Origin: an uncultured Prevotellaceae bacterium
GTDB lineage: Bacteria; Bacteroidota; Bacteroidia; Bacteroidales; Muribaculaceae
Direction: 5' to 3'
Length of the DNA stretch: 64,000 nucleotides
Assembly: GCA_900318645.1 (NCBI GenBank)
Contig: ONLH01000012.1
Span: 34,656 to 98,655 of the forward strand
In this document: positions 21,195-62,657 of the stretch, one piece after another
How positions within the stretch are numbered: the first letter of the stretch is position 1
How the letters are laid out: the number at the start of each line of letters is the position of its first letter
Notes under the pieces: generated by a model
What the model saw: only the letters and a program-made list of their open reading frames with translations
What the model was told of the DNA's origin: nothing
The model's database searches: none
Position numbers and translations under genes: made by a program

Positions 21195-21256
21195 TTACAG
21201 TTTCTTCTAGATTATCTAGATAGTCTAGTTAGTCTAGAGCATCTAGAGATGCTAGC
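21195..21256. repeat. TCTAGA-phased spacer repeat
   Basis: Short units around TCTAGA/CTAGAT recur every 9-11 bases (TCTAGATTATCTAGATAG, then GTCTAGAGCATCTAGAG). It lies between two same-strand genes. Similar stretches occur at 22999-23052, 26292-26335, 26780-26824 and 33100-33142. Confidence 0.7.
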
Positions 21257-21265
21257 ACCTAAAGC

Positions 21266-22018
21266 CTATCTAAGCCGGCGCCTAAAGCGGTTCTTGTTGA
21301 AAAGGGAATCCCAACGCAGCTTGATCACACCGAACAGTGCCTCAAAGAAGATGCTGCTGTTCATCTTGCTCTCGCCATAGACGCGGTTGACAAACACGAT
21401 GGGCACTTCCTTGATTTTAAAGCCCATGCAATGAGCCGTGAACTTCATCTCTATCTGGAAAGCATAGCCCTTAAACTCGATAGCGTCAAGGTCAATAGAC
21501 AACAGCACTTCGCGACGGTAGCAGACATATCCTGCCGTCGCATCACGCACCTTCATTCCCGTAATCAAGCGTACATAGGCCGATGCGAAGTAACTCATAA
21601 GCATCCTTCCCATCGGCCAGTTGACGACATTCACGCCAGTGATATATCTTGAGCCGACCGAGACATCAGCACCGCCAGTGGCACATGCCGCCTGCAACTC
21701 GGGCAACTTATCGACAGGATGGGAAAAGTCAGCGTCCATCTCAATGATATACTCATAACCCTGCTCCAAAGCCCACTTGAATCCAGCGATATAGGCCGTA
21801 CCCAGGCCCTGCTTGCCGGCTCGTTTGAGAATATGGATGCGCTCCGGACGCTCGGCAATCATCGAGTCCACGATGGCACCAGTGCCGTCGGGGGAATTGT
21901 CGTCAACAATGAGCACATCAAACTCGTGCTTACTCAGTGCTAGCACGGCGTTAATGATATTCCTGATGTTCTCCTTCTCGTTATAAGTAGGAATGATTAC
22001 TAAACTGTCTGACTTCAT
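21266..22018 (-). CDS. Polyprenol/dolichyl-phosphate mannosyltransferase-like GT2 enzyme
   Basis: A 250-residue family 2 glycosyltransferase. The N-terminal VIIPTYNEKENI, VDDNSPDGTG, EMDADFSHP (DxD-type metal site) and later FKGYAFQIEMKF match bacterial DPM-synthase-like proteins, which transfer a sugar from GDP-mannose (or UDP-sugar) to a lipid phosphate. There is no C-terminal membrane domain, so it would act at the cytoplasmic face as a peripheral enzyme. Basic tail NKNRFRRRLR. A TACCTTTG element lies 35 bases upstream at 22053-22060. Confidence 0.88.
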   Translation of the reverse strand: MKSDSLVIIPTYNEKENIRNIINAVLALSKHEFDVLIVDDNSPDGTGAIVDSMIAERPERIHILKRAGKQGLGTAYIAGFKWALEQGYEYIIEMDADFSHPVDKLPELQAACATGGADVSVGSRYITGVNVVNWPMGRMLMSYFASAYVRLITGMKVRDATAGYVCYRREVLLSIDLDAIEFKGYAFQIEMKFTAHCMGFKIKEVPIVFVNRVYGESKMNSSIFFEALFGVIKLRWDSLFNKNRFRRRLR

Positions 22019-22052
22019 TAGTGCTTATATTTACGTCGTCTGAATGAAACAA

Positions 22053-22060
22053 CAAAGGTA
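22053..22060 (-). promoter_or_regulatory. -7 promoter element upstream of the GT2 gene
   Basis: TACCTTTG on the minus strand. No clear -33 TTTG at 19-21 bases. Confidence 0.45.
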
Positions 22061-22356
22061 CTATTTTTTTTGATACTAACGCCTCACTTTGAGAGGTTAT
22101 TATTCCATTTCAGCCGTTTTTTAAATCTTTCACAACGATTAACACTCCTTTTAAGCGTGCAAAAACCATGCCAGCCCATGGCCCCATGGATAACCACAAA
22201 ACCACTCTCTCGAGATGCATTCGCTCACATCATAACATGATAACATTTTCCGCAAGATTCAGCATTGACGTTAAGTCAACTAGCGACAATCAAGAGCCGC
22301 GAGAATCAACTGGTCACGGCTCTTTTTCACTGCATTCGTCAAGAAAAAGAGCATAA
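22061..22356. other. Intergenic region between divergent genes
   Basis: The gap from 22019 to 22423 holds the two divergent promoters. In its middle is a hairpin at 22293-22328 in which AGAGCCG pairs with CGGCTCT, followed by TTTTTC on the plus strand. A 62-codon plus-strand frame here (22168-22356) has no ribosome site or recognisable content. Nothing else is seen. Confidence 0.5.
22293..22328 (+). terminator. Orphan terminator-like hairpin
   Basis: AGAGCCG (22293-22299) pairs with CGGCTCT and is followed by T5. No plus-strand gene ends here, so it may close a small untranslated RNA or be incidental. Confidence 0.35.
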
Positions 22357-22390
22357 TTGTGAGGACACTAGAAAAAAAGCAGTATCTTTG
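22357..22390 (+). promoter_or_regulatory. Promoter of the DUF1599 operon
   Basis: TTGT (22357-22360), 22 bases, TATCTTTG (22383-22390). The spacing is slightly long; the -7 box is perfect. The DUF1599 ATG is 34 bases downstream. Confidence 0.6.
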
Positions 22391-22423
22391 TAGGTTAAAT
22401 CAATTTGAATCAAATTTTTGACT

Positions 22424-22972
22424 ATGCACAATACCAGCAAACAATATGATGAGGTGATTGCCACCTGCCGCGAGTTGTTCATCAACAAGATGAAGGACTA
22501 CGGCCCCTCGTGGCGTATCCTGAGACCGCAATCGGTTACCGACCAGATTTTCATCAAGGCCAAGCGCATCCGCACCTTGGAGCTCAACGGTGAGACCAAG
22601 GTGGGCGAAGGCATCTGGCCCGAATTCATCGGCATCATCAACTATGGCATCATCGGACTGATCCAACTGCGCCTCGGCTACACCGATATAGTTGACATCA
22701 CCGCCACGGAGGCCTTGGAACTCTATGACAAATACATCGCCGACACCAAGGACCTGATGATTGCCAAGAACACCGACTATGGCGAGGCCTGGCGCGACAT
22801 GCGTATCTCAAGCTACACCGACCTGATCCTGACCAAGATCCAGCGCACCAAGGAAATTGAGAACCACGGTGGCGCCACGCTGGTGAGCGAGGGCATCGAC
22901 GCCAACTATCAGGACATGATCAACTATAGCGTGTTCGCCCTCATCAAGCACAACGAGGAGGAAATGAAGTGA
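22424..22972 (+). CDS. DUF1599 protein
   Basis: A 182-residue protein started at the ATG at 22424. An in-frame TTG two codons earlier is less likely. It has two repeats of a DUF1599 unit: KMKDYGPSWRILRP ... IKAKRIRTLE and KNTDYGEAWRDMRI ... LTKIQRTKEIE, each with a D-Y-G-x-x-W core. DUF1599 is described as a nucleotide-modification-associated domain; no reaction has been established here. First gene of an operon with a DoxX/MauE protein and the kinase-AAA fusion. Confidence 0.88.
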   Translation: MHNTSKQYDEVIATCRELFINKMKDYGPSWRILRPQSVTDQIFIKAKRIRTLELNGETKVGEGIWPEFIGIINYGIIGLIQLRLGYTDIVDITATEALELYDKYIADTKDLMIAKNTDYGEAWRDMRISSYTDLILTKIQRTKEIENHGGATLVSEGIDANYQDMINYSVFALIKHNEEEMK

Positions 22973-23090
22973 GAAGTTAGAAGTGAGAAGTTAGGAGTTA
23001 GAATTTAATCTCTAGACTATCTAGATCATCTAGATCATCTAGAAAATCTAGAACAACTAACAACTGAAAACTGAAAACTAAAAACTGAAC
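22973..23090. repeat. Spacer with phased TCTAGA and AACTGAAAA repeats
   Basis: AGAAGTTAG/AGAAGTGAG units, then TCTAGATCA repeated three times, then AACTGAAAACTGAAAACTAAAAACTG-type units directly before the next ATG. It is an intra-operon spacer without coding potential. Confidence 0.7.
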
Positions 23091-24416
23091 ATGACCATCA
23101 AAGCCTTCATCAATGCTGTCAAGGGCGAGAAGTGGTGCCAGCTGCTTACCGTGCTCATGCGACTTACCGTGGGAGGAATCTTTGCCTTCTCGGGGTTCGC
23201 TAAGGGGATTGACCCCTGGGGCACTTATTACAAAGTCTCGGACTACTTGACCGCTATGGGACTCGATCAATGGGCCGATACTGCTCTGTTCATTGCCGTG
23301 GCTCTTGCGGCCATTGAGTTCATGATTGGTATCGCCATCATCGTGGGCGCCTATCGCCGCAGTTCGCCATGGATGGCGCTGGTTTTCATGCTCATCATGA
23401 CGCCCATCACACTGTGGATTGCCATCACTGGGGCGGTCGCCGACTGCGGCTGTTTCGGCGATGCACTCCACCTGAGCAACTGGGCCACCTTCGGCAAGAA
23501 CTTACTCTTGCTGCTGGGAGTCATCTATCAGCTGGCATTCAACCGTTCGGTCCGCAGTATCTACGGCCCTGCAATCCAGTGGATGGTGATGGCTGTATCC
23601 TTTGCCCTGGTCATGGCGATTGCCTACTATGGCTACTTCAAGCAGCCCCTCATTGACTACCGCCCCTACCCCATCGGCACACGGCTCGTGGCCACCACCG
23701 ACAATAATGAGGAAAGTGAGGATGATTACACCTTCATCTATCGCAAGGACGGTGTTGAGCACGAATTTTCTATCGACAGCCTGCCCGATGAGGAAGAGGG
23801 CTGGGAATATGTGACTCGTTACCATTCACGGCGCCCTAACGGCAAAATCATCGTGCAGAACGGCAACGACCAGGACGGCATAGCCATCCTTGACGAGGAG
23901 GGCAACGACGTCACCATCGATGTGCTGAGCGATAGCCGGCGGACTGTGCTCTTGCTCTTCCCCGACCTGTCGCAGGTGGGCGTGGTCAACTCCTATGCGC
24001 TGAACGAGCTCAACGATGCTGCTATCGTGGCCGAGGCCAACGTCGTGGGGCTGACTCCTGCAACGGCTGAGGAGATTGAGCAATGGCAAGACGTGTCGAT
24101 GTCGAGCTATCCCATCTACAACATGGATGACAGCGAACTCAAAATGGTAGCTCGTGGTAATCCTGCCGTGGTTTATCTGCAGGACGGAGTCATCCAGTGG
24201 AAACGTACCCTATCCTCAATCGAAGACGTGGAGCAACCTGTCGAACTGAGCGAGATGGGCAAGGATTATAATCCCGATACGATTCTGACACGCCTGCTGG
24301 TGTACTTCATGATCGCGATGATAGTACTGCTGTTCATCAACCGCACCTATCCCGTTATGAAGCACCTGCACTCCCGCAAAAAATCAAAAAACCGACAACT
24401 GACAACTGACAACTAA
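23091..24416 (+). CDS. DoxX/MauE-family membrane protein (BT_3928-like)
   Basis: A 441-residue protein. Residues about 15-150 hold four membrane helices of the DoxX/MauE type, including the DCGCFGD loop (about 123-129) with redox-suited cysteines. A fifth helix is near 165-185. A periplasmic domain (about 190-395) and a final helix (about 400-420) follow. MauE relatives act in disulfide or redox handling at the membrane. A DUF1599-DoxX pair is, as I recall, a common Bacteroidales arrangement. The next gene starts two bases after the stop. Confidence 0.82.
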   Translation: MTIKAFINAVKGEKWCQLLTVLMRLTVGGIFAFSGFAKGIDPWGTYYKVSDYLTAMGLDQWADTALFIAVALAAIEFMIGIAIIVGAYRRSSPWMALVFMLIMTPITLWIAITGAVADCGCFGDALHLSNWATFGKNLLLLLGVIYQLAFNRSVRSIYGPAIQWMVMAVSFALVMAIAYYGYFKQPLIDYRPYPIGTRLVATTDNNEESEDDYTFIYRKDGVEHEFSIDSLPDEEEGWEYVTRYHSRRPNGKIIVQNGNDQDGIAILDEEGNDVTIDVLSDSRRTVLLLFPDLSQVGVVNSYALNELNDAAIVAEANVVGLTPATAEEIEQWQDVSMSSYPIYNMDDSELKMVARGNPAVVYLQDGVIQWKRTLSSIEDVEQPVELSEMGKDYNPDTILTRLLVYFMIAMIVLLFINRTYPVMKHLHSRKKSKNRQLTTDN

Positions 24417-24418
24417 AT

Positions 24419-26281
24419 ATGATACTCAAACAAGGACAAATCATCGACAACAAGTGGCATGTGGTTTATCTCATCAAGGCAAACCCCTATGCCGAGAGTT
24501 ACCGCGTAGAGGATGAGAGCGGCAACCCCTACTTCATGAAGATTTACCGTCTCAAGAACACGCCCGAGAAACTCATTGAGAATGGTACCGTATGGGAAAT
24601 CGTGTGGTCCCTGTTCATTAAGCACAAGAACATCATCAGCATGATTGATAATGGCGGCTACAAGGACGAGGAGGGCGAGTGCCGCTACCTGGTAGCCAAC
24701 TACTTCAGCGGTGAACTGCTCAGTGAGTTGATCCAGCGCAAGGGTAAACTCCCGGCCAAACGGGCTACCAAGATCTTCCTGGAGATGCTCCAAGGTCTGC
24801 AATACATGCACAACATGAAGAGTGGATGCCTGCACAACGACATCAACCCCACCAACGTCATGCTCAGCAGCAAGACCGGCGGCACGGCCGAGCTCATTGA
24901 CTTGGGCCACGTCTCGACCTACTTCATGGGTACACCGCCATTTGACACGGCCGACCTGGACCCGCGCTATGCCAGCGGCCAGTCGTTTATCGGCAAGTAT
25001 GACGAGCGCAACGATATCTTTGCCGCCACAGGCGTGTTCTACACGATGCTCACGGGACGAGTGCCCTGGGATATAGAATTCAGGCCCGACATGACCCGTA
25101 AAGAGAAAATCAAACTCGTCCAGAAAGTACGCGGTGATCAAGGAGAAATCAACGTTGATGCCATCAAGGACAAGAAACTCAAAGCCATCATTTCTAAAGG
25201 ATTGGCTCTGGGCTATAACGACCGTTACGGCAGCGTAGAGGAAATCATGCTCGACCTCATCGAGGGCGATGACAGCGAGACCGCCCAGGAAGTACGTAGC
25301 AAACTCGCAAACGAGGAAGCCGATCTCGGCTTAGATAGCTTTGATGACTTGGAGAACTCCATCAAATCAGACGATGACAGCACCCATAACGCCCCTCGCT
25401 CACAGGCTGCCACCGAGACCAGTGCCGATGTCGAGGTCAAGCGCGGTGGGGGCAACGGATTTGCCGATATCGCCGGAATGGACGACCTGAAGGAGATGCT
25501 GCGCAAGCGCGTCATCCTCATCCTCAAGGACAAGGAACTGGCCGAGAAATACAAGCTCACGCCACCCAATGGCATGTTGCTGTACGGCCCTCCGGGATGC
25601 GGCAAGAGCTTCTTTGCCGAGAAATTTGCCGAGGAGACGGGCTTCAACTTCATCCTCGTCAAGGCCAGCGACCTGGGTTCCATCTACATCCACGGCTCAC
25701 AAGGCAAGATTGCCGACCTGTTCAAGAAGGCCGAAGAGAACGCCCCGTCGATTTTGTGCTTCGATGAGTTCGACGCTTTCGTACCCAGCCGTTCGGGAGA
25801 CTTGGGCAGCAACCAAGCCGGTGAGGTCAACGAATTCCTCTCCCAACTCAACAACTGCTCCAAGCGCGGCATCTTTGTCATCGCTACCAGCAACCGTCCC
25901 GACAAGGTGGATCCCGCCGTGCTCCGCACTGGCCGCATCGACAAGCAGGTCTATGTGCCCATGCCCGACAAGACGGCTCGCAAACTTATGTTTGAGCTAT
26001 ACCTCAAGGGCCGTCCCTGTGATAAGATCGACAGTGACGAACTTGCTGAAAAGGCCGATGGCTATGTCGCCAGCGATATCGCCTACGTGGTCAACGAGGC
26101 AGCCACCATCGCCGCCTTCAACCACGAGAACATCACCCAGGAGCTGCTGTGCAAAACCATCGAGGGCATCAAGCCGTCAATCAACAAGGAACTGCTCAAG
26201 GAATATGAGGAAATGCGCGACAAGATGGAAGGCATCTCACGCACCAATGCTCTGCCTCGTGTAGGCTTCAATGTAAATTAG
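24419..26281 (+). CDS. Fusion of Hanks-type protein kinase and Cdc48/FtsH-like AAA+ ATPase
   Basis: A 620-residue protein. The kinase domain (about 8-285) has K41 in YFMKIY as ATP-anchoring lysine and the catalytic loop HNDINPTN (139-146; D141 and N146 kept, but N143 in place of the usual Lys). DLG (161-163) stands in for DFG, and DERNDI (195-200) is at the helix F start. No glycine-rich loop is obvious. An acidic linker (about 286-345) leads to an AAA+ module: FADIAGMDDLKEML, Walker A GPPGCGKS (390-397), Walker B ILCFDEFD (445-452), sensor ATSNRPD, and arginines R503 and R506. No membrane segment or protease domain. Likely a cytoplasmic signalling-controlled unfoldase; substrate unknown. The kinase may be weak or a pseudokinase because of the catalytic-loop substitution. 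Confidence 0.88.
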   Translation: MILKQGQIIDNKWHVVYLIKANPYAESYRVEDESGNPYFMKIYRLKNTPEKLIENGTVWEIVWSLFIKHKNIISMIDNGGYKDEEGECRYLVANYFSGELLSELIQRKGKLPAKRATKIFLEMLQGLQYMHNMKSGCLHNDINPTNVMLSSKTGGTAELIDLGHVSTYFMGTPPFDTADLDPRYASGQSFIGKYDERNDIFAATGVFYTMLTGRVPWDIEFRPDMTRKEKIKLVQKVRGDQGEINVDAIKDKKLKAIISKGLALGYNDRYGSVEEIMLDLIEGDDSETAQEVRSKLANEEADLGLDSFDDLENSIKSDDDSTHNAPRSQAATETSADVEVKRGGGNGFADIAGMDDLKEMLRKRVILILKDKELAEKYKLTPPNGMLLYGPPGCGKSFFAEKFAEETGFNFILVKASDLGSIYIHGSQGKIADLFKKAEENAPSILCFDEFDAFVPSRSGDLGSNQAGEVNEFLSQLNNCSKRGIFVIATSNRPDKVDPAVLRTGRIDKQVYVPMPDKTARKLMFELYLKGRPCDKIDSDELAEKADGYVASDIAYVVNEAATIAAFNHENITQELLCKTIEGIKPSINKELLKEYEEMRDKMEGISRTNALPRVGFNVN

Positions 26282-26291
26282 GAGTGAGGAT

Positions 26292-26335
26292 TTAATCTCT
26301 AGACTATCTAGATCATCTAGAAATTCTAGAAAAAA
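26292..26335. repeat. TCTAGA-phased spacer repeat
   Basis: TCTAGACTATCTAGATCA followed by TCTAGAAATTCTAG, between the kinase-AAA gene and the YbjN-like gene. Confidence 0.65.
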
Positions 26336-26363
26336 CCGACAACAAAAACTAAAAACTGAGAAT

Positions 26364-26780
26364 ATGGACTTAAACAAATTGATTTTTGATTTTCTGGCCG
26401 AGGAAGGATTCCGTCCACACGAGACGGAATTTGGTATCGCTTTCAAGTCTGAGGGTTTCAACTTCCTGTTCTTTAAGGATGATGAGGATGAGCAGTACTT
26501 CAGGCTTATGATGCCTGCCATCTTTGAGGTCACCGAGGACAACGAGGACATGATCCTCAAGGCAATGAACGATGTGAACGGTAACATCAAGGTGGTGAAA
26601 CTCTATACCATGGAAATGGAAGATGAGGAAGAGAAAAAATCCACCAGCGTGTGGGTTGCCTTCGAAATCCTTGCCGACACCACCCCCGAGATAGGCGACA
26701 TCATGCCGCGTGCCATCACCCTACTCAAGGGCGGACGCATCGCTTTCCTCGCCCGACTCGAAGAAATGGCTGACAATTAA
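26364..26780 (+). CDS. YbjN-like / secretion-chaperone-fold protein
   Basis: A 138-residue acidic protein. The alternation FLAEEGFRPHETEFGIAFKSEGFNFLFF ... YFRLMMPAIFEVTED ... WVAFEILAD fits the YbjN/CesT-like alpha-beta fold, used by chaperone-like and stress-linked proteins. It starts 82 bases after the kinase-AAA gene, across a phased-repeat spacer, and ends at a bidirectional terminator, so it is probably the last gene of that operon. By position it is a candidate adaptor or substrate-presenting partner of the AAA+ protein (inference). Confidence 0.75.
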   Translation: MDLNKLIFDFLAEEGFRPHETEFGIAFKSEGFNFLFFKDDEDEQYFRLMMPAIFEVTEDNEDMILKAMNDVNGNIKVVKLYTMEMEDEEEKKSTSVWVAFEILADTTPEIGDIMPRAITLLKGGRIAFLARLEEMADN

Positions 26781-26824
26781 TCTAGACCATCTAGATCATC
26801 TAGATCATCTAGAAAATCTAGAAA
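26780..26824. repeat. TCTAGA-phased spacer repeat
   Basis: Units of TCTAGATCA in series directly after the stop codon of the YbjN-like gene, before the terminator. Confidence 0.65.
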
Positions 26825-26832
26825 AAAACTGA

Positions 26833-26880
26833 AATCATGAGGGCGCACTAGTTGAACTGGTGCGCCCTCATGATTGTTTT
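26833..26880. terminator. Bidirectional terminator between convergent genes
   Basis: Near-perfect palindrome 26833-26875 (arms beginning AATCATGAGGGCGCAC, with a short central loop). It is followed by GTTTTTATT on the plus strand and, five bases on, by a T7 run on the minus strand. It serves both the YbjN-like gene and the C10 peptidase gene. Confidence 0.9.
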
Positions 26881-26898
26881 TATTCCCTAACGGCGGTA

Positions 26899-28971
26899 TT
26901 AATCACTACGGCGGCTTAGCAACAGATTAATCAGGGCTGTAACATCGGCAATCGACACCTTGTCATCACCATTGACATTGGAGCAGATTGTACAAGCATT
27001 ATCAGTCGCCCCCGACAACAGATAGTTGATCAATGCGGTAACATCGGCGATAGAAACCTTTTTATCGTGATTCACATCACCAGGCTCATAGCCGTGGCCT
27101 TGCTCCTCAAGCAAGGTAACGGTCTGGAGATTTGATTTCTTGGTTACGCCATCGGCAAAATGCGTCACGACCAGGTAACGGTAAGTAGCTCCCATGGACA
27201 AGCCCGAAACAGTATATTGCTTGGTATCAATGTCAGGGATCACCATGGACTCAGCATTGTAATAGCCCACCTCGGTCGGGTCACGTTCGTCACCCGTAAC
27301 GACCACCACATCATCAATATAGAATCGGCTGGCACGCCCCGTGCAACCAAATGTCACTGTTGCACCAGCAGCAACGTTCTCAAACACCACGGCATAGTCT
27401 GTCGCCATTCGCGACAACGCTATTTGCTGCTGGCTGTCGCCACAAGTGATGAGCACCGAGCTATTTTCGTGGCCATAGTAACGGGCGTTGAACCTCACGG
27501 TTATCACGCCATCGCTACCCACATTAAGCGGGGGCGTTGTCAGTGAACCCACATACTTCTGGCCACCGACGATAAAGCAACCGCCAGCACCCAGATAAAC
27601 GAAGTTGCCGGTCCAGCCCGGTTGATCACAATAATTAGCTACCTTGTTCGATGACAGCGCTGTCGTAGCATCCAGATTGACGTCAATGGCTGAGAAGGTC
27701 TCGTTAAGCAATACCTCATGGGCATAGGCGTCATAGGGCTGTACATACAGCGTGTAGCCAGTCACCATCTCGGCAGGGGTCGTGTCGGACCATGTAGCCG
27801 TGAACGAGGTGGATTCCACATTGGTGGCCTCATCCAGATCCGCAGCATGTTTGTCATATAGATATCCCGTCGGGTAAACCTGATACAGCATCTGCTGTTC
27901 ACTGGAGTATTTCAGCCCGCTATAGGTAAAGGCATCAAGGGCAAAATAGCCATTGCCTGCGCCACTCCAACCCCAATTCACATGATACATACCACCGCCA
28001 CAGCCATCCACCACGAAGGCATGCCCTGCATTCTTGTCAGGGTCAACACCTCCATATAGGATGGGGCACCCGGCAGCGAGCTGGGCCTCAATCATGTCGG
28101 CCCATGCTTCGGCACTGTAGTTGTCACGGTCAAGCAGGGTCGCATCAGCATTGTAACCGAACGTTTTCATTCCCTCTAGCTCATCGTCACTGTACGCACC
28201 ACTGCCAGCGGTGCCATAATTCATATAACAAGCCTGTCCACAATAGCGCATCAGCATCGCCACGGCATCACGCTGCTGAGTAGTGGCACTGTTTGTGTAT
28301 TCGTCAAGCATATTCTCCCAGTCAAATGTTCCACCAGGTAAAGCGCCCACCGTGCCACCATTGACCGACGAGGTATAGCTATCCATTGCAGGAGCCTCGG
28401 CAGGGAACTTCCAGTAATACATCACTTGGGCCATCGCCGTGGCCACACACCCTGTCAAGCAATGCTGGGTGCCGCTGGTAGGGCACTGGTTGTAGTAAGG
28501 TGAACGCTGGTTCCAGGCACACGAGAGGAGTGGTGACACCACCGTTGCCGTTTGAAGGGACGTTCTGTCGACGTTCATGTCGGGGTGTTGCCGCAGGACG
28601 GCCATCTGCCGCTTGTAGTGGCCGAGCAGCCACTGCATATTGCATGGCAGGTTATCCATATCCAGGGACTGACCACCATAAGCCAGCACCTGGGTCGCAC
28701 GGTCATCGCCCGCTATAATCACAAATGCGCTGCCGTCTTCGGTATTGAACACATAGTAGTCGGCCAAGCGGGAATCTGATGCCGATGGCTCAACATGGGC
28801 AAGCATCAGACTACCAGCAGAAGCGTTGATGGCCCTCCGAGTCTGTTGCGCCAGGAATCCTGACGCCTTCAGGCGCGCCTCGTGGGAATCGACAGCGGCT
28901 GCCGACGCATCTATCGCAAGAAAGAGACTCCCGGCCAATGCCAAGGTCTTCAAGTAATTGATGGTTTTCAT
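26899..28971 (-). CDS. Secreted C10 (streptopain-like) cysteine peptidase with dockerin repeats
   Basis: A 690-residue protein from the ATG at 28971, chosen because a clean signal peptide follows (MKTINYLKTLALAGSLFLAI). Residues about 25-140 are the propeptide. The catalytic domain holds HCLTGCVATAMAQVMYYW with C175, NAGHAFVVDG with H317, and WGWSG at 333-337, the streptopain set. A C-terminal jelly-roll-like region (about 380-600) precedes two dockerin-type repeats (GDVNHDKKVSIADVTALI and NVNGDDKVSIADVTALI). Streptopain relatives degrade host or dietary proteins. Last gene of a protease operon with an M6 peptidase. Confidence 0.93.
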   Translation of the reverse strand: MKTINYLKTLALAGSLFLAIDASAAAVDSHEARLKASGFLAQQTRRAINASAGSLMLAHVEPSASDSRLADYYVFNTEDGSAFVIIAGDDRATQVLAYGGQSLDMDNLPCNMQWLLGHYKRQMAVLRQHPDMNVDRTSLQTATVVSPLLSCAWNQRSPYYNQCPTSGTQHCLTGCVATAMAQVMYYWKFPAEAPAMDSYTSSVNGGTVGALPGGTFDWENMLDEYTNSATTQQRDAVAMLMRYCGQACYMNYGTAGSGAYSDDELEGMKTFGYNADATLLDRDNYSAEAWADMIEAQLAAGCPILYGGVDPDKNAGHAFVVDGCGGGMYHVNWGWSGAGNGYFALDAFTYSGLKYSSEQQMLYQVYPTGYLYDKHAADLDEATNVESTSFTATWSDTTPAEMVTGYTLYVQPYDAYAHEVLLNETFSAIDVNLDATTALSSNKVANYCDQPGWTGNFVYLGAGGCFIVGGQKYVGSLTTPPLNVGSDGVITVRFNARYYGHENSSVLITCGDSQQQIALSRMATDYAVVFENVAAGATVTFGCTGRASRFYIDDVVVVTGDERDPTEVGYYNAESMVIPDIDTKQYTVSGLSMGATYRYLVVTHFADGVTKKSNLQTVTLLEEQGHGYEPGDVNHDKKVSIADVTALINYLLSGATDNACTICSNVNGDDKVSIADVTALINLLLSRRSD

Positions 28972-29054
28972 GATTTCAAGGATGTTTAGTATTGTAGCGG
29001 GACCAGCCAGATCCAGTGGTATTGCCAAACGCCCTACAGACTAAAAGCTACCAA

Positions 29055-30770
29055 CTATTTAGTCAGAATCATGTCGATGAGGGCAGTGATATCGGCAACA
29101 TTCACTTCTCCGTCACTATTCACGTCAAAGGTGGCAAGATCGTATTGCTTGCTCAGGATGGCGTCGATGAGCGTGGTGACGTCAGCGATATTGACCTCGC
29201 CATCTCGATTCACGTCACCGCGTTTGAAATTGGACTTCATGTACCAGAAGCTGGCCACGCCGTCGGCTACGGTCATGCCGGTGATTGGTTTGTTCATAAA
29301 TTCGCCGGTATAGACCATGGCTGGAGGTGTGGAGTTGTTGGTCAACGAGTCTAGCCCTTCCTGAGGCCACAAGTCATACCTATTACTATAACTTGACAGG
29401 AGGTTGTCGGCGGGAATAAGTGACATGCGTGGATGATTACCATTATTGTTAGGTGTGTTTTCGTCCCATGCCGTCTTGTCATAATCGACATGCAGGATCA
29501 TGATGCCCTCAGCGGGCAGGAACTCGTCCCAACCTGTCTTGACACGATAATCCAGCAGGTAATATTCATCGGGATTGGCGTCGTTGGTCACCTTGACAGC
29601 GGTACCATCGTCGGTATTGAGCGGCAGCATAAAGTATTGCGTATTTTCCTCGGGTTCAATAAGGTCCAACCAACCCATGAAATGACGCTCATAGGAGGTA
29701 TAGCCACAGGGACGGTGGGCATTGTCCAAGTAGCAGCCCACGTCCATGATGTCCCAGGCATTCATGCCATAGATGCCGCCTCCGACGGTGGAATAGAAAT
29801 CGGGAAGTCCCAGGCAATGGCCAAACTCATGGCAGAAGGTGCCCACGCCATCGATGGTGGTGCTGTAGTTGTTGTTGCCTTCCAACTCGTTGAACACGGC
29901 ATACTTATCAATCGTCACGCCATTGAGCTCGAACGGGCCCACCGTGCTGCAACCCCAGTCCAGGGATTCCTGCATGTCCCACTGGCAAGGCCACACGCTC
30001 TCGGGGACGGTGCGCCAAGCCTGAGCCTCGCCCACGCCAGCAAAAAGCACAACCACCACATCGACATAGCCGTCGTCATCGTTGTCATAGTTCGAAAAAT
30101 CGACATCGGGCAATCCAGTGCAGGCGTCATAGATCATCGTTCCCAACTGGGTATCAACTTCCTGACCATAGATATACTTGTTAGCGCCATAGAAAGCCCG
30201 ATTCTGGGGCAGGTTGACGGGACCCAGGATGTCAAACCGGGGCGAGAACCTGCCGCGAGACTGCGATTCAAAATAATGCAGGCTGCTGTATTCCATCAAG
30301 TTGAACTGGTTCTCGAACGTATTGACGGGATTCTCGTCAACAAACTGTATGTCGGTGTAATTGACTAGAATGATAGGGATGCGGGGAGTGCCTAGCGTGG
30401 GAACCTGCGGCGTGGGGTTTTCCTCCTCACGGCGCGGCAAGCGGCTTCTTCCTGCACCCAGTGCCATCTGGCTACGATAGGCGCTGATGAATGCCGTCTC
30501 CTCAATGCCACGATGACCCTGGTCATGGGCCAGCACATCACTCAGCGAGCCGGCAGCCTTGTAACAGTAGTCACCGTTCATGTCACGACCCACGGTCAAG
30601 CCGTCAAGCGTCATCAGCGAGTGGTTGAATTCTCCACCGCCCATCATCAGCGTCACGGTCGTGCCATCGCTCTGAACGTGGGTGAACGGCTCGGGCTTAG
30701 CCGGCGCCGCCATCACTGCAGCACAACACATCGCGGCCACTATTGTCAATAATATTTTTTTCATCTTCAT
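29055..30770 (-). CDS. Secreted M6-family metallopeptidase with dockerin repeats
   Basis: A 571-residue protein with a signal peptide (MKMKKILLTIVAAMCCAAVMA). The zinc motif HEFGHCLGLPD is at 314-324 (H314, E315, H318, D324), typical of immune-inhibitor-A-like M6 peptidases. The downstream segment IYGMNAWDIMDVG carries the Met-turn. The C-terminus (about 510-571) has two dockerin-type repeats (GDVNRDGEVNIADVTTLI and DVNSDGEVNVADITALI). Its ATG overlaps the stop of the upstream lipoprotein gene by four bases. No cohesin partner is visible in the window. Confidence 0.92.
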   Translation of the reverse strand: MKMKKILLTIVAAMCCAAVMAAPAKPEPFTHVQSDGTTVTLMMGGGEFNHSLMTLDGLTVGRDMNGDYCYKAAGSLSDVLAHDQGHRGIEETAFISAYRSQMALGAGRSRLPRREEENPTPQVPTLGTPRIPIILVNYTDIQFVDENPVNTFENQFNLMEYSSLHYFESQSRGRFSPRFDILGPVNLPQNRAFYGANKYIYGQEVDTQLGTMIYDACTGLPDVDFSNYDNDDDGYVDVVVVLFAGVGEAQAWRTVPESVWPCQWDMQESLDWGCSTVGPFELNGVTIDKYAVFNELEGNNNYSTTIDGVGTFCHEFGHCLGLPDFYSTVGGGIYGMNAWDIMDVGCYLDNAHRPCGYTSYERHFMGWLDLIEPEENTQYFMLPLNTDDGTAVKVTNDANPDEYYLLDYRVKTGWDEFLPAEGIMILHVDYDKTAWDENTPNNNGNHPRMSLIPADNLLSSYSNRYDLWPQEGLDSLTNNSTPPAMVYTGEFMNKPITGMTVADGVASFWYMKSNFKRGDVNRDGEVNIADVTTLIDAILSKQYDLATFDVNSDGEVNVADITALIDMILTK

Positions 30771-33086: not shown

Positions 33087-33186
33087 CTTTCCGTTTTTTC
33101 TAGTTCATCTAGTTTATCTAGATAGTCTAGATCCTCTAGAGATACCAACTCCTAACTCCTCACTCCTCACTCCTAACTCCTAACTC
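33087..33186. repeat. Spacer with phased TCTAGA and ACTCCTA units
   Basis: TCTAGTTCATCTAGTTTATC-type units, then TAGTCTAGATCCTCTAGAG, then six to seven copies of a 7-base ACTCCTA/ACTCCTC unit. It lies between fur-like and mtgA. No gene content. Confidence 0.7.
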
Positions 33187-48010: not shown

Positions 48011-50671
48011 ATGATGAAAAAATTCTTACTGTTACTCATTTCCTTGACGATTGCAATCGGCATCAATGCCGATGAGGCTATGAAGCGCGAAATGCGTGCC
48101 GCATGGGTCGCAACGGTATGGGGCATCGACTGGCCTACGACAACCAACAACGCCAGCGCCCAAAAGGCTGAGCTCAACGCCTATCTCGACAACCTCCAGG
48201 CCCAAAATTTCAATGCAATCTTCTTCCAGGTGCGCTCGATGTGCGACGCCATGTACCAGTCCAGTTACGAGCCGTGGTCCAGCTACCTGACAGGTACCCG
48301 CGGCAAGAACCCCGGTTATGACCCGCTGGCTTATGCCGTCGAGCAGTGCCACGCCCGTGGCATCCAATGTCACGCCTGGGTCAACCCCTATCGCTGGAGC
48401 ACAGGGACCAACTGGAACACTGCTCAAGATCAGGAACTGAAAAACAAGGGCATGCTGCTCTCCTATACTAATGGTAGCACGACAACCACTATCCTCAATC
48501 CCGGATTGTCCGAGACGCGCCAGCGCATCGTGGACGTGATCAGGGAGATCATTACCAACTATGATGTGGACGGCATCGTCTTCGATGACTATTTCTATCC
48601 CAACGGGATCCCCACCAACAACAAAGCCGAGGACTATAACCTGTGGAACGATTCCAATGTGGACATGACCTTTGCCGATTGGCGCCGCAACAACGTCAAC
48701 ATGATGGTCAGGGATGTCTATTATATGATTCAGGACACGAAGCCCGAGGTGCGTTTCGGCATCAGTCCCGCCGGCGTGGCTGGCACCGCCAGCACATCGG
48801 CAGGGCAGCATGGCGTCACCCCTTGCCCCACGGGCAGCGACTGGCAGTTTAACGGCATCTTCAGCGACCCGTTGGCATGGTTGGAACAAGGCACCATCGA
48901 CTATATCTCGCCACAACTCTACTGGAAAACCAACCACAGCACCAACCCCTTCGGACCCTTAACCGACTGGTGGAGCTACATCGCCAAGCACTATGGTCGT
49001 CACCACTACGCCAGCCACAGCATCTCGTTCCTCGCCTCACAGAGCAACACTACCAACGATTGGGCCGAAATCGTTAGCCAAATCAGTTTCTCACGCCAAT
49101 ATACCGAGGACAACTCCCCCGGTGTTGTGCTCTATAGCGCCAAAAACATCAACGGCAACAACAACGGCGTCAGCGGTCTGGGCAACTACCTGCTGGCCAA
49201 TGCCTTCCAGCGTCCTGCTATGATTCCTGCCGTGACATGGAAGGCAGCACCAGGCTATGGCGCTCCCGCCAATCTGGCCAAGAGCGGCAACGACCTTAGT
49301 TGGTCAGTCCAAGAGGGAGTATTGGTAAAATACTCGGTCTACGCCGTACCTGCCGAGGTCACTGTTGAGAATGCCATGAGCGAGATATATGACGGTATCA
49401 GGAGCGACTATCTGCTTGACGTTACCTACAAACCGTCTTATACATTACCCAGTGCCAACCAGGATGGCTACTGGTATGCCGTGTGTGTCATCGATGGCTA
49501 TGGCAACGAGAGCGAGCCCGCTTATCTAGGCGTGAATGACAACCCCGTTGACCCCGAACAGCCCACACCTGTCACTTACACTATCGAGAAAGTTTGGGAA
49601 ATCAACAACCTCGACTTCCTCACCATGGCCGACGCACGTCAGGGCTTCGGCATGGACGGCAAGTTCTATATCAATGATAAGGGCACAAGCACCATCCTCG
49701 TGGTGGACCGCAACGGCTTGACAGGCGAGACCTTCGAGGGCGGCGTCAACGTAGGCTTTACCCGCGACCAGGCAGGCAACCTGGTAGTTAGCAACGCCCA
49801 CTTCCCCGATCCCTGGGCAAGCAATACCCAACTCAAAGTCATCAACCCGGCTACTGGCGAAGTGGTGACCCATACCCTACCCGCCGAGGTCATCAACTTC
49901 GGTCGCAGCGACAACATGGGCTTCCCGATGGGCAACCTGATGGAGGACGGCGAGCTTTACCTTGTGGGCGCCAACAGCGGCACATCCATCAGCCGCATCA
50001 AGTTCACTGACGGCGAAATCAATACCGATGACACCTATCTGGCCAACTGCGACGGTGTGAGCCCCAACAGCGGCACGGTGCTCAACTACTATACCGACAT
50101 CAATGGCGATGATGCCATCCTCTACGTCAACCGCTCCAGTACGCTCAAGAAACTGGCATTCAGCGGCGACGGATTCACCGCAACAAATATTTCATTGCCC
50201 AACAAGGGTAACTGCAACGGCACCTTCCCCTTCATCTGGGACGGCAAGGAACTCATGGTATATCCCACACTGAGCAATTATCGTGACGGATTTGCCGTGG
50301 CCGAGGTCAATGCGGCAACTCCGCTCGTCAGTGTTGCACAGACAGCCAGTGCCGATGCCAATTCCTATCAGGCCAACTGGCTCAATGCCGAAGTCATCGA
50401 CTCCCGTCACGTGACCATCTACCAGTACTATCCCGGTGGCCACCTCACCGTATGGAGCCTGACCAAACAGGGAGGCCTCCTGCGCGGCGATGTCAACGAG
50501 GACAGCAAAGTCAACATCTCTGATGTCACAGCCCTCATTAGCTACCTCCTCAGCGGCAACACCGACGGCACCAACACCGACAACGCCGACTGCAACATGG
50601 ATTCTACCACCAACATCAGCGACGTCACCGCCCTGATCAACTACCTCCTCAGCGACTCCTGGCCCGAGTAA
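48011..50671 (+). CDS. Secreted family-10-like glycosyl hydrolase (DUF187/GHL10) with dockerin repeats
   Basis: An 886-residue secreted protein (signal MMKKFLLLLISLTIAIGINA). Residues about 25-390 are a GHL10/DUF187 TIM barrel: EMRAAWVATVWGIDWP, NFNAIFFQVRSMCDAMY, WVNPYRW, VDGIVFDDYFYP and IDYISPQLYW. Then comes a fibronectin-like segment (about 400-505) and a beta-propeller-like region (about 520-815). Two C-terminal dockerin repeats follow (GDVNEDSKVNISDVTALI and NMDSTTNISDVTALI). It probably acts on cell-wall or glycan material outside the cell. Single gene ending at a strong terminator. Confidence 0.9.
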   Translation: MMKKFLLLLISLTIAIGINADEAMKREMRAAWVATVWGIDWPTTTNNASAQKAELNAYLDNLQAQNFNAIFFQVRSMCDAMYQSSYEPWSSYLTGTRGKNPGYDPLAYAVEQCHARGIQCHAWVNPYRWSTGTNWNTAQDQELKNKGMLLSYTNGSTTTTILNPGLSETRQRIVDVIREIITNYDVDGIVFDDYFYPNGIPTNNKAEDYNLWNDSNVDMTFADWRRNNVNMMVRDVYYMIQDTKPEVRFGISPAGVAGTASTSAGQHGVTPCPTGSDWQFNGIFSDPLAWLEQGTIDYISPQLYWKTNHSTNPFGPLTDWWSYIAKHYGRHHYASHSISFLASQSNTTNDWAEIVSQISFSRQYTEDNSPGVVLYSAKNINGNNNGVSGLGNYLLANAFQRPAMIPAVTWKAAPGYGAPANLAKSGNDLSWSVQEGVLVKYSVYAVPAEVTVENAMSEIYDGIRSDYLLDVTYKPSYTLPSANQDGYWYAVCVIDGYGNESEPAYLGVNDNPVDPEQPTPVTYTIEKVWEINNLDFLTMADARQGFGMDGKFYINDKGTSTILVVDRNGLTGETFEGGVNVGFTRDQAGNLVVSNAHFPDPWASNTQLKVINPATGEVVTHTLPAEVINFGRSDNMGFPMGNLMEDGELYLVGANSGTSISRIKFTDGEINTDDTYLANCDGVSPNSGTVLNYYTDINGDDAILYVNRSSTLKKLAFSGDGFTATNISLPNKGNCNGTFPFIWDGKELMVYPTLSNYRDGFAVAEVNAATPLVSVAQTASADANSYQANWLNAEVIDSRHVTIYQYYPGGHLTVWSLTKQGGLLRGDVNEDSKVNISDVTALISYLLSGNTDGTNTDNADCNMDSTTNISDVTALINYLLSDSWPE

Positions 50672-58695: not shown

Positions 58696-59814
58696 TTACT
58701 TCAGCACCTTGTCCAGATAATCGTAGAAGCCGGCTGACTCGCCCACGACAACCTTTGCCACCTTACCCTCGGGGTCAATGATAATCTTGGTGGGGAAGTT
58801 TTCTATATGGTACAGCTCCATCGGGTTGTCGCCCTTCTCTCTATCACAATAGACGTGCAACCAGGGCAGCTCGTGCTTGGCGACTGCGCCTTTCCACTTC
58901 TCGACAGTGTCGTTGCAGTCCACACCCAGGATTTCGAGTTTGTCCTGATATTTGGCATAGTATTCCTTCATCTTGGGCATGCCCTTGATACACCACACGC
59001 ACCACGAGCCCCAGAAGTCGAGAACCACCCACTTGCCACGCAGCGAGCTCAGCGCCAGCGGCTTGCCGTTGATGTCCATCAACGTGAAGTCGGGAGCCAT
59101 GGCACCTACTCTACCATGCTTGGCAGCCTCCTTTAGGGCACTCTCGAGTTTTGTCTTGTACAGGTGGGCGGCCACACTATTACGGGCGCGCTCAGTCAAC
59201 ATAGCGTCGGCAGATTCCAGAAAGTCGAGTTCCTCGGGCAATTCAGCAATCAGCGCGGCAGCTGCATCCTGGTCGGGATGTGCCTTGACATAGCCCATCA
59301 CGGCATCAGACAACATCTGCACCAGCACGGGAACTTTTGCCTGATACAATGCCATCAGTTCTTCCTCGGCAGCGCCAGCCTGCATTTTGCTCGTGAGCTC
59401 CTTCATGAGTGCATCACCTTCCTTATTGACTGGATCCACCCTTTTCCATGCCTCGTCATAATCCACATAGAACTGCGAGCCATTCAAACTGAGCCCTCCA
59501 TTTGCATCCTTGGAAACGACAAGCGTCTCGCCAGGGATAGCGGGAAGCGTGATATCACCATCCTCGTTAAGAGGACGCCCTGTATGCCAGCGTCCTATGG
59601 TGATAAAGTTCGCATCCTCAAGGTCAAATGTCACCTCAATCATCTTGCCGGTTACAGTACGAATATCACCTTGATCCAAGTCGTGGGATAAGAAGAACAC
59701 TACCGAGTCACCGAGATGCTCAAACGTGCCCTTCACCGTGAATTTACCGTCCTGGGCCACGGCGCCCAGCATCATCATGCCCATGAGCATGGATAAAATC
59801 AATTTCTTCATCAC
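58696..59814 (-). CDS. DUF4369/TlpA-like thioredoxin-fold protein, copy 1
   Basis: A 372-residue secreted protein with signal peptide MMKKLILSMLMGMMMLGAVA. Residues about 21-125 form a DUF4369-like beta domain (DGKFTVKGTFEHLGDSV). A helical linker follows, with the paralogue-wide DPVNKEGD/ADAMLTERARNSVAAHLYK block. Residues about 235-372 form a TlpA/AhpC-type thioredoxin domain with redox pair CVWC in FWGSWCVWCIKGMPK. It probably keeps periplasmic or surface cysteines reduced. Part of a run of four related genes. Confidence 0.88.
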   Translation of the reverse strand: MMKKLILSMLMGMMMLGAVAQDGKFTVKGTFEHLGDSVVFFLSHDLDQGDIRTVTGKMIEVTFDLEDANFITIGRWHTGRPLNEDGDITLPAIPGETLVVSKDANGGLSLNGSQFYVDYDEAWKRVDPVNKEGDALMKELTSKMQAGAAEEELMALYQAKVPVLVQMLSDAVMGYVKAHPDQDAAAALIAELPEELDFLESADAMLTERARNSVAAHLYKTKLESALKEAAKHGRVGAMAPDFTLMDINGKPLALSSLRGKWVVLDFWGSWCVWCIKGMPKMKEYYAKYQDKLEILGVDCNDTVEKWKGAVAKHELPWLHVYCDREKGDNPMELYHIENFPTKIIIDPEGKVAKVVVGESAGFYDYLDKVLK

Positions 59815-59843
59815 AACAAGTGTTCTAAACGATTATCTTTCCG

Positions 59844-59875
59844 CAAAGTTAGTAACAATCAAATTGATATGCAAA
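59844..59875 (-). promoter_or_regulatory. Promoter of DUF4369/TlpA copy 1
   Basis: Minus strand: TTTG (59872-59875), 20 bases, TAACTTTG (59844-59851). Almost the same sequence recurs at 62687-62718 before copy 3. Confidence 0.75.
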
Positions 59876-60149
59876 TCTATCAATAAAATACTCATCCCCA
59901 TCCCATTTTATCCGTTTTATCCGTTTTATCCGTGCTATCCGTTATATCCGTTATATCCGAGCCACCACAAACCTCACGCAAAGCCGCGAAGTCTTTATTA
60001 AACATTTGCTCGCAAGAGGCTCGCAAAAAAGAATTGTCTTTAATCTGTTGCGAGCCTCTTGCGAGCAAACAAAATTTCTTAGCAACTTAGCGCCTTAGCG
60101 TGCCACGTTATATCCGTGTTATTCAAGCACCGCCAACCGCACGCTTGAT
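59876..60149. other. Spacer with ATCCGTT tandem units and a perfect inverted repeat
   Basis: Contains ATCCGTTTTATCCGT-type units (59905-59960). A perfect 22-base inverted repeat has arms at 60005-60026 and 60048-60069 around a 21-base loop; each arm holds GCTCGCAA twice. No T-tract follows either side, so a simple terminator is doubtful. No gene seen. Confidence 0.7.
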
Positions 60150-61280
60150 TCACTTCAGCACCTCGTCGAGGTAGTCATAGAAAGCGGGATCCTCACCAAC
60201 AATAATCTTGGTAATCTTGCCCTCGGGATCCACAACGACCTTGGTGGGGAAGCCTTGCACGCCATAGAGTTCCAACGGGTTGTCACCCTTTTCCTTGTCC
60301 CAATAGACATGGAGCCAGGGTATCTCGTGCTTGGCAACAGCGTTTTTCCACTTCTCGACCGTGTCGTTGCAGTCCACGCCCAGGATTTCGAGTTTGCCAG
60401 CATACTTAGCATAGTATTCCTTCATCTTGGGCATACCCTTGATGCACCAGCCGCACCATGAGCCCCAGAAGTCAAGGATTACCCACTTGCCACGCAGGCT
60501 ACTCAACGCCAGCGGCTTGCCGCTGATGTCGTTGAGCGTGAAGTCGGGTGCCAAATTACCCTCAAGTCCCTCTTGGAGTGACTGACTGGCTTTTTCTTTC
60601 TCGGCAGAGGCTAGCATTGCCTTATAAAGATTGGCGGCAACACTACCACGGACACGCTCGGTCAGCAAAGCCGCACCCTCTTTCATGTGCTCGGCATCAC
60701 TGCCCAAATCGGAGAGCAGCACAGCCGATGCATCCTGATCAGGATGAGCCTTGACATAGCCCAGCACCGCATCGGCCAAAGCCTGTTCAAGAGCGGGATA
60801 TTTCTCCTCTAACACTTTGTTGATATCTTCCTCGGACACACCCGACGCAAACTTGTCACGGCACTCATTTACGAAGTCTCGGAGAGCCTTTTGAGGGGCC
60901 TTGATGATATTGGAGGCCTCGTGATAATCGATATAGACCTGTGAGCCACCCAGGGTGTAATCGTCACCTTCGCCTTCGATGACTGCATTCTCGCCAGTCA
61001 GAGCAGGAATGGCAAACGAGTTGTTGACGCTCAACTGGCCATTTTCCAAGCCGAACATATAGAAGAATCCCACATCATCCAGGTCAAACGTCATGTTGAA
61101 CTTGTCACCATCGATAGCACGATTCTCCTGAACCAGCATATCACCGTTTGCGTTCATAAGAAAGACCTTTACCGAGTCGCCTAGCCCCTTTAAGGAGCCG
61201 CTAACCGTGAATTTACCGTCCTGGGCCGTCATGCCCAGCATCATCATGCCCGCAAGCATGGACAAAAATAATTTTCTCAT
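60150..61280 (-). CDS. DUF4369/TlpA-like thioredoxin-fold protein, copy 2
   Basis: A 376-residue secreted protein (signal ending MMLGMTAQ). N-terminal DUF4369-like domain (DGKFTVSGSLKGLGDSVKVF), linker with AALLTERVRGSVAANLYKA, then the thioredoxin domain with CGWC in FWGSWCGWCIKGMPK. Paralogue of copy 1, most similar in the thioredoxin part (identical runs LEILGVDCNDTVEKWK). Both probably act on the same class of substrates in the periplasm. Confidence 0.88.
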   Translation of the reverse strand: MRKLFLSMLAGMMMLGMTAQDGKFTVSGSLKGLGDSVKVFLMNANGDMLVQENRAIDGDKFNMTFDLDDVGFFYMFGLENGQLSVNNSFAIPALTGENAVIEGEGDDYTLGGSQVYIDYHEASNIIKAPQKALRDFVNECRDKFASGVSEEDINKVLEEKYPALEQALADAVLGYVKAHPDQDASAVLLSDLGSDAEHMKEGAALLTERVRGSVAANLYKAMLASAEKEKASQSLQEGLEGNLAPDFTLNDISGKPLALSSLRGKWVILDFWGSWCGWCIKGMPKMKEYYAKYAGKLEILGVDCNDTVEKWKNAVAKHEIPWLHVYWDKEKGDNPLELYGVQGFPTKVVVDPEGKITKIIVGEDPAFYDYLDEVLK

Positions 61281-61364
61281 ATCAAACGTTATATTTTAGT
61301 TTCGTTCAAATCAAAATTCGAATCTACATCTATTCGTGAGATTTGCAAAATGAAAACATATTAA

Positions 61365-62657
61365 TTATTTAGGTTTCACCCGATTTCTCTTCTTTGCCTC
61401 GGCAAGTATAGGCTTATACAAGTTGGCGGCCACACTGTTACGCACTCGCTCGGTCAGCAGGGCATCGCCCCGCACTACGGCATCGTACCGAATTCCTGCC
61501 CCATCTTTGTTGATAAAAATTCCCAGCAGTGCTGCCGATGCTTCCTGGTCGGGATGATCCTTTATATATGCAAATAAGGCCTCTACATAATTGTCGAACA
61601 GGTCATAATTCTTACTTTCACAAAGCTCAATCAATTGAGGCTCAATAGCCCGAACTGTTTCATCATAATCAATATAAAACTGCGAACCACCCAAACCGTA
61701 ATAAGGTTCACCCTCCATATAAAAAACGACCGTATCACCAGGAATGGCTGGTATTTCAATATGTCTCTGGTAACCCTGTCGGCCGTCGTACACAATGAGC
61801 AACGCAGCATCCTTCAAATCAAACGACAACTCCAACATCTCAGCACTCGCGGCACGAGTCTCAAAGTATAGCTCTTCGTTATAAAGTGGATTTCCACAAT
61901 CAAGGATCTGGAATGTCACCGAGTCACCCTCGCATAAAAACCAGCCCTGTACTGTGAATTTTCCACCCTGGCCCATGGTGTCCAACGCCATCGTGCCACT
62001 CTCTTCTGCCTCGGCAAGATAAGGCTTATACAAGTTGGCGACCACACTGTTACGCACTCGCTCGGTCAGCATGGCATCACCCCGCCCTAAGACATCATCC
62101 CAATCGACAATCACATTTTGGGCAAAAATTCCCAGCAGTGCTGCCGATGCTTCCTGGTCGGGATGATCCTCGACATACGCCAACAAGGCCTCTTCATAAT
62201 TGTTGAACGCTTCCGCCAGATACTGATCACTATCAGCATCCTGTTTACAACGCGCTTCATAAAGCTCAATCGCTTGAGGCTCAATAGCCCGAACTGCTTC
62301 ATCATAATCAATATAAAACTGCGAACCACCCAAACGGTAATAAGGTTCACCCTCCATATAAAAAACGACCGTATCACCAGGAATGGCTGGTATTTCAATA
62401 TGTCTCTGGTAACCCTGTCGGCCGTCGTACACATGAAGCAACGCAACATCCTCCAGATCAAACGACAACTCCAACATCTCAGCACTCGCGGCACAAGTCT
62501 CAAAGTATAGGACTTCATATTCACAATCAATGATTTCTAAAGTCACCGAGTCGCCCTCGCATTCAAACCAGCCCTGTACTGTGAATTTGCCACCCTGGGC
62601 CATCGCACCCAGCGCCATCATGCCCGCGAGAATGGAAAGTAATAACTTTTTCATCAT
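61365..62657 (-). CDS. Fused double DUF4369-like protein lacking the thioredoxin domain, copy 3
   Basis: A 430-residue secreted protein (signal MMKKLLLSILAGMMALGAMA) with two nearly identical units of about 205 residues. Unit 1 starts QGGKFTVQGWFECEGDSV and unit 2 QGGKFTVQGWFLCEGDSV. Each ends with the LTERVRNSV...NLYKP block. No CxxC thioredoxin domain follows. Just before unit 2 stands TMALDTMGQGG, matching the end of the signal peptide of unit 1 (MMALGAMAQGG). This shows that two tandem copies fused through loss of the region between them. Function now probably structural or lost. Confidence 0.85.
   Translation of the reverse strand: MMKKLLLSILAGMMALGAMAQGGKFTVQGWFECEGDSVTLEIIDCEYEVLYFETCAASAEMLELSFDLEDVALLHVYDGRQGYQRHIEIPAIPGDTVVFYMEGEPYYRLGGSQFYIDYDEAVRAIEPQAIELYEARCKQDADSDQYLAEAFNNYEEALLAYVEDHPDQEASAALLGIFAQNVIVDWDDVLGRGDAMLTERVRNSVVANLYKPYLAEAEESGTMALDTMGQGGKFTVQGWFLCEGDSVTFQILDCGNPLYNEELYFETRAASAEMLELSFDLKDAALLIVYDGRQGYQRHIEIPAIPGDTVVFYMEGEPYYGLGGSQFYIDYDETVRAIEPQLIELCESKNYDLFDNYVEALFAYIKDHPDQEASAALLGIFINKDGAGIRYDAVVRGDALLTERVRNSVAANLYKPILAEAKKRNRVKPK

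Follow-up and report, generated by a model that had tools for sequence, protein, structure and literature searches.

A kinase-fold domain fused to a classical AAA+ ATPase and paired with a YbjN-like protein in Bacteroidales: a possible protein-remodelling module

What might a single polypeptide do with both a protein kinase fold and an AAA+ motor, and why should a gene for a small YbjN-like protein follow it so closely? These questions are raised by a locus within the window, by which we mean the whole 64-kb stretch of DNA that was analysed. A preliminary description had proposed that a kinase domain is joined in one chain to a complete AAA+ module; Pfam detects both domains in the 620-aa frame, and all the residues named there are at the positions given for them. 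Our contention, from the sequence evidence set out below, is that the two genes may constitute a protein-remodelling module, in which the kinase fold gates an AAA+ motor and a chaperone that binds clients supplies them to it, and we would give this reading an even chance. The features of the locus are these:

24419..26281 (stop codon included), + strand: kinase-AAA fusion gene, 620 aa (open reading frame, Pfam, NCBIfam, PDB sequence search)
24419..25273, + strand: N-terminal protein-kinase-fold domain, residues about 1-285 (K41, HND at 139-141, N143 at the Lys position, N146, DLG at 161-163)
25274..25450, + strand: variable linker, residues about 286-344 (mean pairwise identity 0.20 in 39 relatives)
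25451..26227, + strand: classical AAA+ module, residues about 345-603 (Pfam AAA and AAA_lid_3, VCP-like match, invariant residues)
26228..26278, + strand: C-terminal tail of the fusion, with a conserved hydrophobic-Gly-aromatic motif (motif count in 98 fusion proteins)
26364..26780, + strand: YbjN/TY-chaperone-fold partner gene, 138 aa (open reading frame, fold comparison, Pfam matches of relatives)
26833..26875, + strand: terminator-like hairpin of 20 pairs with a T tract, 3' of the YbjN-like gene (terminator scan)

The YbjN-like gene begins 82 bases downstream of the fusion gene and on the same + strand. The terminator scan listed no + strand hairpin between the two, and because such a hairpin follows the second gene they probably end in one common transcript; terminator-like sites in 22000-27200 numbered 7, against 4.8 +/- 1.9 in shuffled sequence. 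Two genes stand upstream of the fusion, one of the BT_3928 family (MauE/DoxX) and one of DUF1599 (Pfam, NCBIfam). The former had been mentioned in the preliminary description as the preceding gene, but it is adjacent in near relatives only, at just 36 of the 78 loci with room upstream, and we do not count it as a member of the system. Short 9-base tandem repeats around TCTAGATCA occupy intergenic positions 21206-21242, 23011-23047, 26298-26325, 26781-26817 and 33117-33135; clusters of this type flank the YbjN-like gene on both sides and contain 21 of the 23 TCTAGA sites in the 64 kb. No Rfam family matched within the 64-kb window. Elsewhere in it, 58696-62657 encodes three adjacent paralogous proteins whose N-termini look exported, two of them ending in a thioredoxin-like CxxC region and the third seemingly without such a region and with its N-terminal part in duplicate, and proteins encoded at 26899-30770 and 48011-50671 carry C-terminal duplicated GDVNxDxxVxIADVTALI repeats, which we take to be dockerin-like.

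Within the fusion, conservation is highest in the AAA region (mean pairwise identity 0.71, compared with 0.48 for the kinase, 0.47 for the tail and 0.20 for the linker, the least conserved), and the sequence motifs of a classical AAA+ ATPase are present in each of the 39 aligned relatives. Its landmarks are Walker A (390-397), Tyr423 at the pore-loop position, Walker B (445-450), the sensor Asn492, the two arginine fingers Arg503/Arg506 and the lid; K396, D449, E450, N492, R503 and R506 are invariant in 39/39, and position 423 is always aromatic (Tyr in 32, Phe in 7). All 39 have His at the third pore-loop position, where FtsH and Cdc48 have Gly. The nearest solved sequence is that of the VCP-like ATPase 5vc7 (E 1.9e-88), and NCBIfam matches the domain to CDC48 (E 2.7e-54) and FtsH (E 5.5e-45), below the family cut-off in either case (TIGR01243, 184.7 bits against 802.65; TIGR01241, 154.2 bits against 600). 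The AAA part of the predicted structure reaches moderate confidence only. As the preliminary description maintained, the protein has no zinc protease or other protease family according to Pfam and no membrane-span-like stretch. From its membership of the classical AAA clade we infer that the AAA+ half would form a ring and thread clients through a pore whose lining would include the conserved aromatic residue 423, and, because the fusion comes without a protease, it would unfold, disaggregate or dismantle complexes, thus remodelling its clients instead of degrading them. Of 98 fusion proteins, 92 have the tail motif, [VIFL][GN][FYW], ending no more than five residues from the C terminus; it resembles an HbYX docking motif but lies 2-5 residues inward of the end in 50 of the 92. 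A proteasome- or HslV-type protease was considered as a partner and rejected, there being no match to PF00227 in the genome from which the window comes (91% complete) and 10 of 14 control genomes being positive.

Residues 1-285 are predicted with high confidence to adopt a kinase fold, nearest to PknB, and kinases made up every row listed in the VIA-align structure comparison of the fusion. In the YbjN-linked clade, K41, H139, N140, D141, P144, N146 and D161 are invariant in 39/39 aligned fusions, all of which thus possess the beta3 Lys of a Hanks-type kinase together with its catalytic Asp, the Asn of the catalytic loop and the DFG Asp; Glu60 is retained in 34 of the 39. The catalytic-loop Lys, on whose replacement the earlier suggestion of a weak kinase or pseudokinase relied, is absent from all 39 (Thr in 30, Asn in 9; N143 in the window protein), but the Lys, Asn and Asp that serve ATP and Mg, as well as the catalytic Asp, all persist. 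The glycine-rich-loop stretch of the window protein, YLIKANPYAESYR, contains no Gly. With this mixture of conserved and replaced residues, the kinase domain of the YbjN-linked clade ought to bind ATP and may yet be capable of phosphotransfer. An alternative reading would have it as a working protein kinase, delivered or recycled by the AAA half, with phosphorylation as the main output. The constancy of K41, D141, N146 and D161, the retention of Glu60 in most relatives and the confidence with which the kinase part is modelled are all consistent with this, but the loss of the catalytic-loop Lys, the absence of Gly from the window protein's loop and the better conservation of the AAA half argue against it. 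So too does the absence of the catalytic Asp from most of the Hsp70-linked relatives described below, from which catalysis would appear to be dispensable family-wide; we therefore regard a working kinase as decidedly improbable. In the remodelling module that we favour, the kinase-fold domain would stand in place of the usual N-domain and gate the ring, binding ATP/Mg and either phosphorylating itself or its client, or acting as a nucleotide-sensing pseudokinase.

The fusion is not confined to its own assembly. In a preliminary set of 41 genomes it occurred both within its own genus and in a different family of the order, and a survey of the genus (threshold E 1e-60) found it in 60 of 101 genomes. 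An assembly artefact or split gene is ruled out, since 58 of these 60 matches are near the whole length of the model and no inner stop codon is listed in the 60; the match in G022 stops at a contig edge, and G088 has the AAA part only (model 277-600) in a 354-aa frame. The YbjN-like gene is found in 56 of the 101 genomes and accompanies the fusion in 55 of the 60 that have it (Fisher's exact p 2e-21, ignoring relatedness), with the two genes no more than 500 bases apart in 53 of the 55, G016 and G057 being the exceptions. Five genomes have the fusion alone, namely G022 (contig edge) and G043, G070, G106 and G115 (divergent fusion), and one, G046, has the YbjN-like gene alone, as a weak match. 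Extra YbjN-like copies lie off the fusion contig in G057 and G016 (L170 2211-3237, L067 3314-3688, L066 7029-7415).

Named genomes yielded 384 stretches with a fusion relative, from which the best 80 by score were kept, a choice that leans to the YbjN-linked clade; they represent Prevotellaceae, Muribaculaceae, Bacteroidaceae, Paludibacteraceae, Alistipes and others, and many are ruminant-derived. A YbjN-like gene follows within 500 bases at 71 of these best 80 of 384 loci (63 by the script rule, and eight where its stop-to-stop frame starts inside the end of the fusion), the median gap being 45 bases over 70 pairs. The nine loci without an adjacent partner are L108, four from Paludibacteraceae (L127, L132, L133, L140), where no partner was recognised next to the fusion, and four from Alistipes/Rikenellaceae (L139, L142, L146, L147). 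The flanks of the pair vary, the commonest Pfam family among 98 neighbours occurring in 4. Distances between fusion proteins and between their YbjN-like partners are strongly correlated (r 0.936 over 70 pairs; maximum 0.346 in 999 permutations), which we read as showing co-inheritance, not contact, as partnership and shared descent alike would give it.

In the sample of the order, 11 of 295 genomes have fusion matches, those in G593 and G647 being AAA-only or partial; the G614 and G508 rows show one TAA, the frames there being 594 and 585 aa. The YbjN-like gene occurs in 10 of the 295, six times without the fusion (G511, G543, G572, G678, G712, G728), and the G678 and G728 proteins have N-termini that look exported on a reading of their sequence. 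Both genes are found in 4, and at seven of the 11 fusion or AAA matches the YbjN-like gene is missing, five of the seven having instead the Hsp70 operon described below. An even sample of the phylum, at E 1e-60, has the fusion in 8 of 392 genomes, its own included. Neither outcome that the preliminary description named as counting against it (a fusion restricted to this assembly, or a YbjN-like gene that does not co-occur with it) is seen within the genus or the best named loci, where the pair is conserved; across the order the link is looser. Carriage by phages was considered and rejected: no phage record covers 80%, and two peptide patterns, applied to viral contigs, produced 13 partial AAA matches.

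In predicted fold the partner protein corresponds to YbjN and the type III secretion chaperones, with matching order of elements. The window protein itself lies below the Pfam threshold (PF10722 YbjN, 13.7 bits against a gathering score of 22), and among 48 relatives 16 match Pfam YbjN and 11 match TY-Chap1 at E <=0.01, the best YbjN match being 1.2e-6. PMC3575483, from which our wording of the topology derives, describes this fold as that of chaperones binding partly unfolded clients. One could instead suppose that the YbjN-like protein regulates or brakes the motor and is not a client-binding adaptor; it is after all a single small partner, adjacent and co-inherited, and regulatory roles have been described for YbjN-family proteins too. 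The chaperone character of the fold and the presence of Hsp70 among the alternative partners in relatives both speak against a brake, which we think quite unlikely. As a TY-type chaperone in the remodelling module, the protein would keep clients partly unfolded and pass them to the ring. Type III secretion chaperones likewise deliver their clients to the secretion ATPase. At L173 (6709-8627) a kinase-less AAA protein of 311 aa is followed by two YbjN-like genes; this single case, along with the existence of two alternative partner sets, suggests that the YbjN-like partner serves the AAA half.

The second of these partner sets, of which the preliminary description had no inkling, belongs to divergent full-length fusions that occupy a different operon, with genes for an NPFR-type protein, an Hsp70, a coiled-coil protein and often TerB. 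Fourteen such loci, picked for having that operon, all contain the NPFR-type protein, the Hsp70 and the fusion, 13 the coiled-coil protein and 9 TerB; gene order in L165 differs from the others, and the 3.6 kb contig L184 holds a further set of Hsp70, fusion and TerB. This form was found not only in the genus (G043, G070, G106, G115) but also elsewhere in the order and the phylum, and on the Haliscomenobacter hydrossis plasmid pHALHY02. An Hsp70-linked profile matched 25 of 394 genomes of the phylum sample, in full length in five (G127, G258, G321, G331, G452), the other matches, including the window's own fusion, covering the AAA part only. No dedicated Hsp70 lies beside the fusion in the window, and the only Hsp70 match in its genome, a frame of 650 aa, lies on contig C51, the window being on C48. 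In 14 of 15 Hsp70-linked fusions the catalytic Asp is replaced (by Glu, Ala, Asn, Ser or Gly), and because of this loss they are probably pseudokinases, the exception being L164, which retains HRD and the Gly-rich loop. The pseudokinase reading would accordingly be much stronger in these relatives than in the clade of the window. Here, the partners of the same motor would be a dedicated Hsp70, the NPFR-type and coiled-coil proteins and, in many cases, TerB.

The NPFR protein was considered as a possible J-domain protein: there was no Pfam DnaJ match in the four scanned, hhalign of A9 with the DnaJ of the window's own genome aligned 20 columns at a probability of 15, and PDB matches to J proteins (2cug, 6iws and Sec63) had E values of 0.33-1.5. 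In Alistipes/Rikenellaceae a 501-503-aa TerB-like gene replaces the YbjN-like gene (L139 11843-13351, L142 11861-13369, L146 11857-13365, L147 3707-5212), its TerB-like N-terminus having been tested with Pfam for L139 and L142; a YbjN-like domain was looked for within the 503-aa Alistipes protein and none was seen. Neither kind of partner was recognised beside the fusions of G601, the second G614 copy, Paludibacteraceae and L108. In a tree of 50 proteins, a branch with SH-aLRT 99 unites 34 rows (27 with YbjN, 5 with no partner and 2 with the 503-aa TerB-like protein) and contains no Hsp70-linked row, L173 also falling outside it; any order with the Hsp70 form first would hang on a weak root (38) and on long branches in what is a quick tree.

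The surroundings of this second form introduce the main rival to a remodelling module, namely a conflict (anti-phage or anti-plasmid) module in which the kinase-AAA protein would sense infection and remodel or phosphorylate host proteins. Five genes, for NPFR-type, coiled-coil, Hsp70, kinase-AAA and TerB proteins, are found both at L203 3553-11078 (pHALHY02), where they are annotated as CFI-box-CTERM protein, septum formation initiator, Hsp70, AAA ATPase and TerB and adjoin the BREX genes brxL and pglZ, and at L161 3914-11234, which by our reading is beside type I restriction-modification genes; 62 neighbours hold one type I methyltransferase and one specificity subunit. This operon looks like a separate, undescribed chaperone or conflict system. 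A defence role would also agree with the patchiness of the fusion in the phylum sample and with the good scores of the PADLOC models PD-T4-6, MADS6 and IetA on it, but any kinase or AAA domain could yield such matches, the likeness to these defence proteins being one of shared kinase or AAA domains. The three other window proteins that were scanned with PADLOC had no match. Moreover, the 98 neighbours of the YbjN form were matched by 56 PADLOC families at E 1e-10 and, among the 25 listed, the commonest occurs in three and Cas1 in one; the two-gene module has no nuclease, TIR or membrane effector; and 60 of the 101 genomes surveyed in the genus carry the fusion. We consider a conflict module unlikely, and an unfoldase with a dedicated adaptor, as first proposed, still seems the best mechanism. 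The presence of an Hsp70 gene in the operons of related fusions supports a remodelling motor; the loose pairing at the level of the order, the nine of 80 loci without a partner and the His at the third pore-loop position count against the module as we read it.

Among the matches listed, we found no description of the YbjN-linked pair or of the Hsp70 operon in the open-access literature. PMC7159879 describes conflict systems in which chaperones accompany AAA+ or GTPase motors, in many cases along with kinases whose catalytic residues are disrupted, but their cores (MoxR-vWA, GTPase-tubulin-HSP70 and double-FtsH) are joined differently from the fusion operons; neither TerB nor YbjN appears in its text, nor in passages of PMC8195603 and PMC12839542. 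In its classical AAA domain the fusion is like Cdc48/VCP, FtsH and the proteasome-activating AAA+ ATPases, but it differs from them in that it has one AAA domain with a kinase fold ahead of it, lacks both protease family and membrane-span-like stretch, and scores far under the NCBIfam family cut-offs. The partner differs from YbjN, DR1245, the TY-chaperones and the class I type III secretion chaperones in that it usually adjoins an AAA motor (71 of the best 80 loci), and the window's own representative falls below the cut-off of the YbjN family in Pfam. Each main part belongs to a known family, in a combination that is apparently undescribed, common in one gut Bacteroidales genus (60/101) and patchy beyond it (11/295 in the order). 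If our reading is correct, a kinase fold linked directly to an unfolding motor in one chain would bear on how kinases and pseudokinases gate AAA+ rings, and the alternative partners of one motor would make the job of a YbjN-type chaperone comparable with that of Hsp70 in related machines. It is conceivable, although we would put it somewhat short of an even chance, that these fusions represent an undescribed class of machine, in which a kinase fold en route to pseudokinase gates a classical AAA+ unfoldase with interchangeable client-loading chaperones, one branch using a single TY-type chaperone of YbjN fold and the other an Hsp70 set, often with TerB. The logic of such a class would parallel, in bacteria, that of the pairs formed by Hsp70 and disaggregases or by chaperones and secretion ATPases, with nucleotide or phosphate signalling built in.
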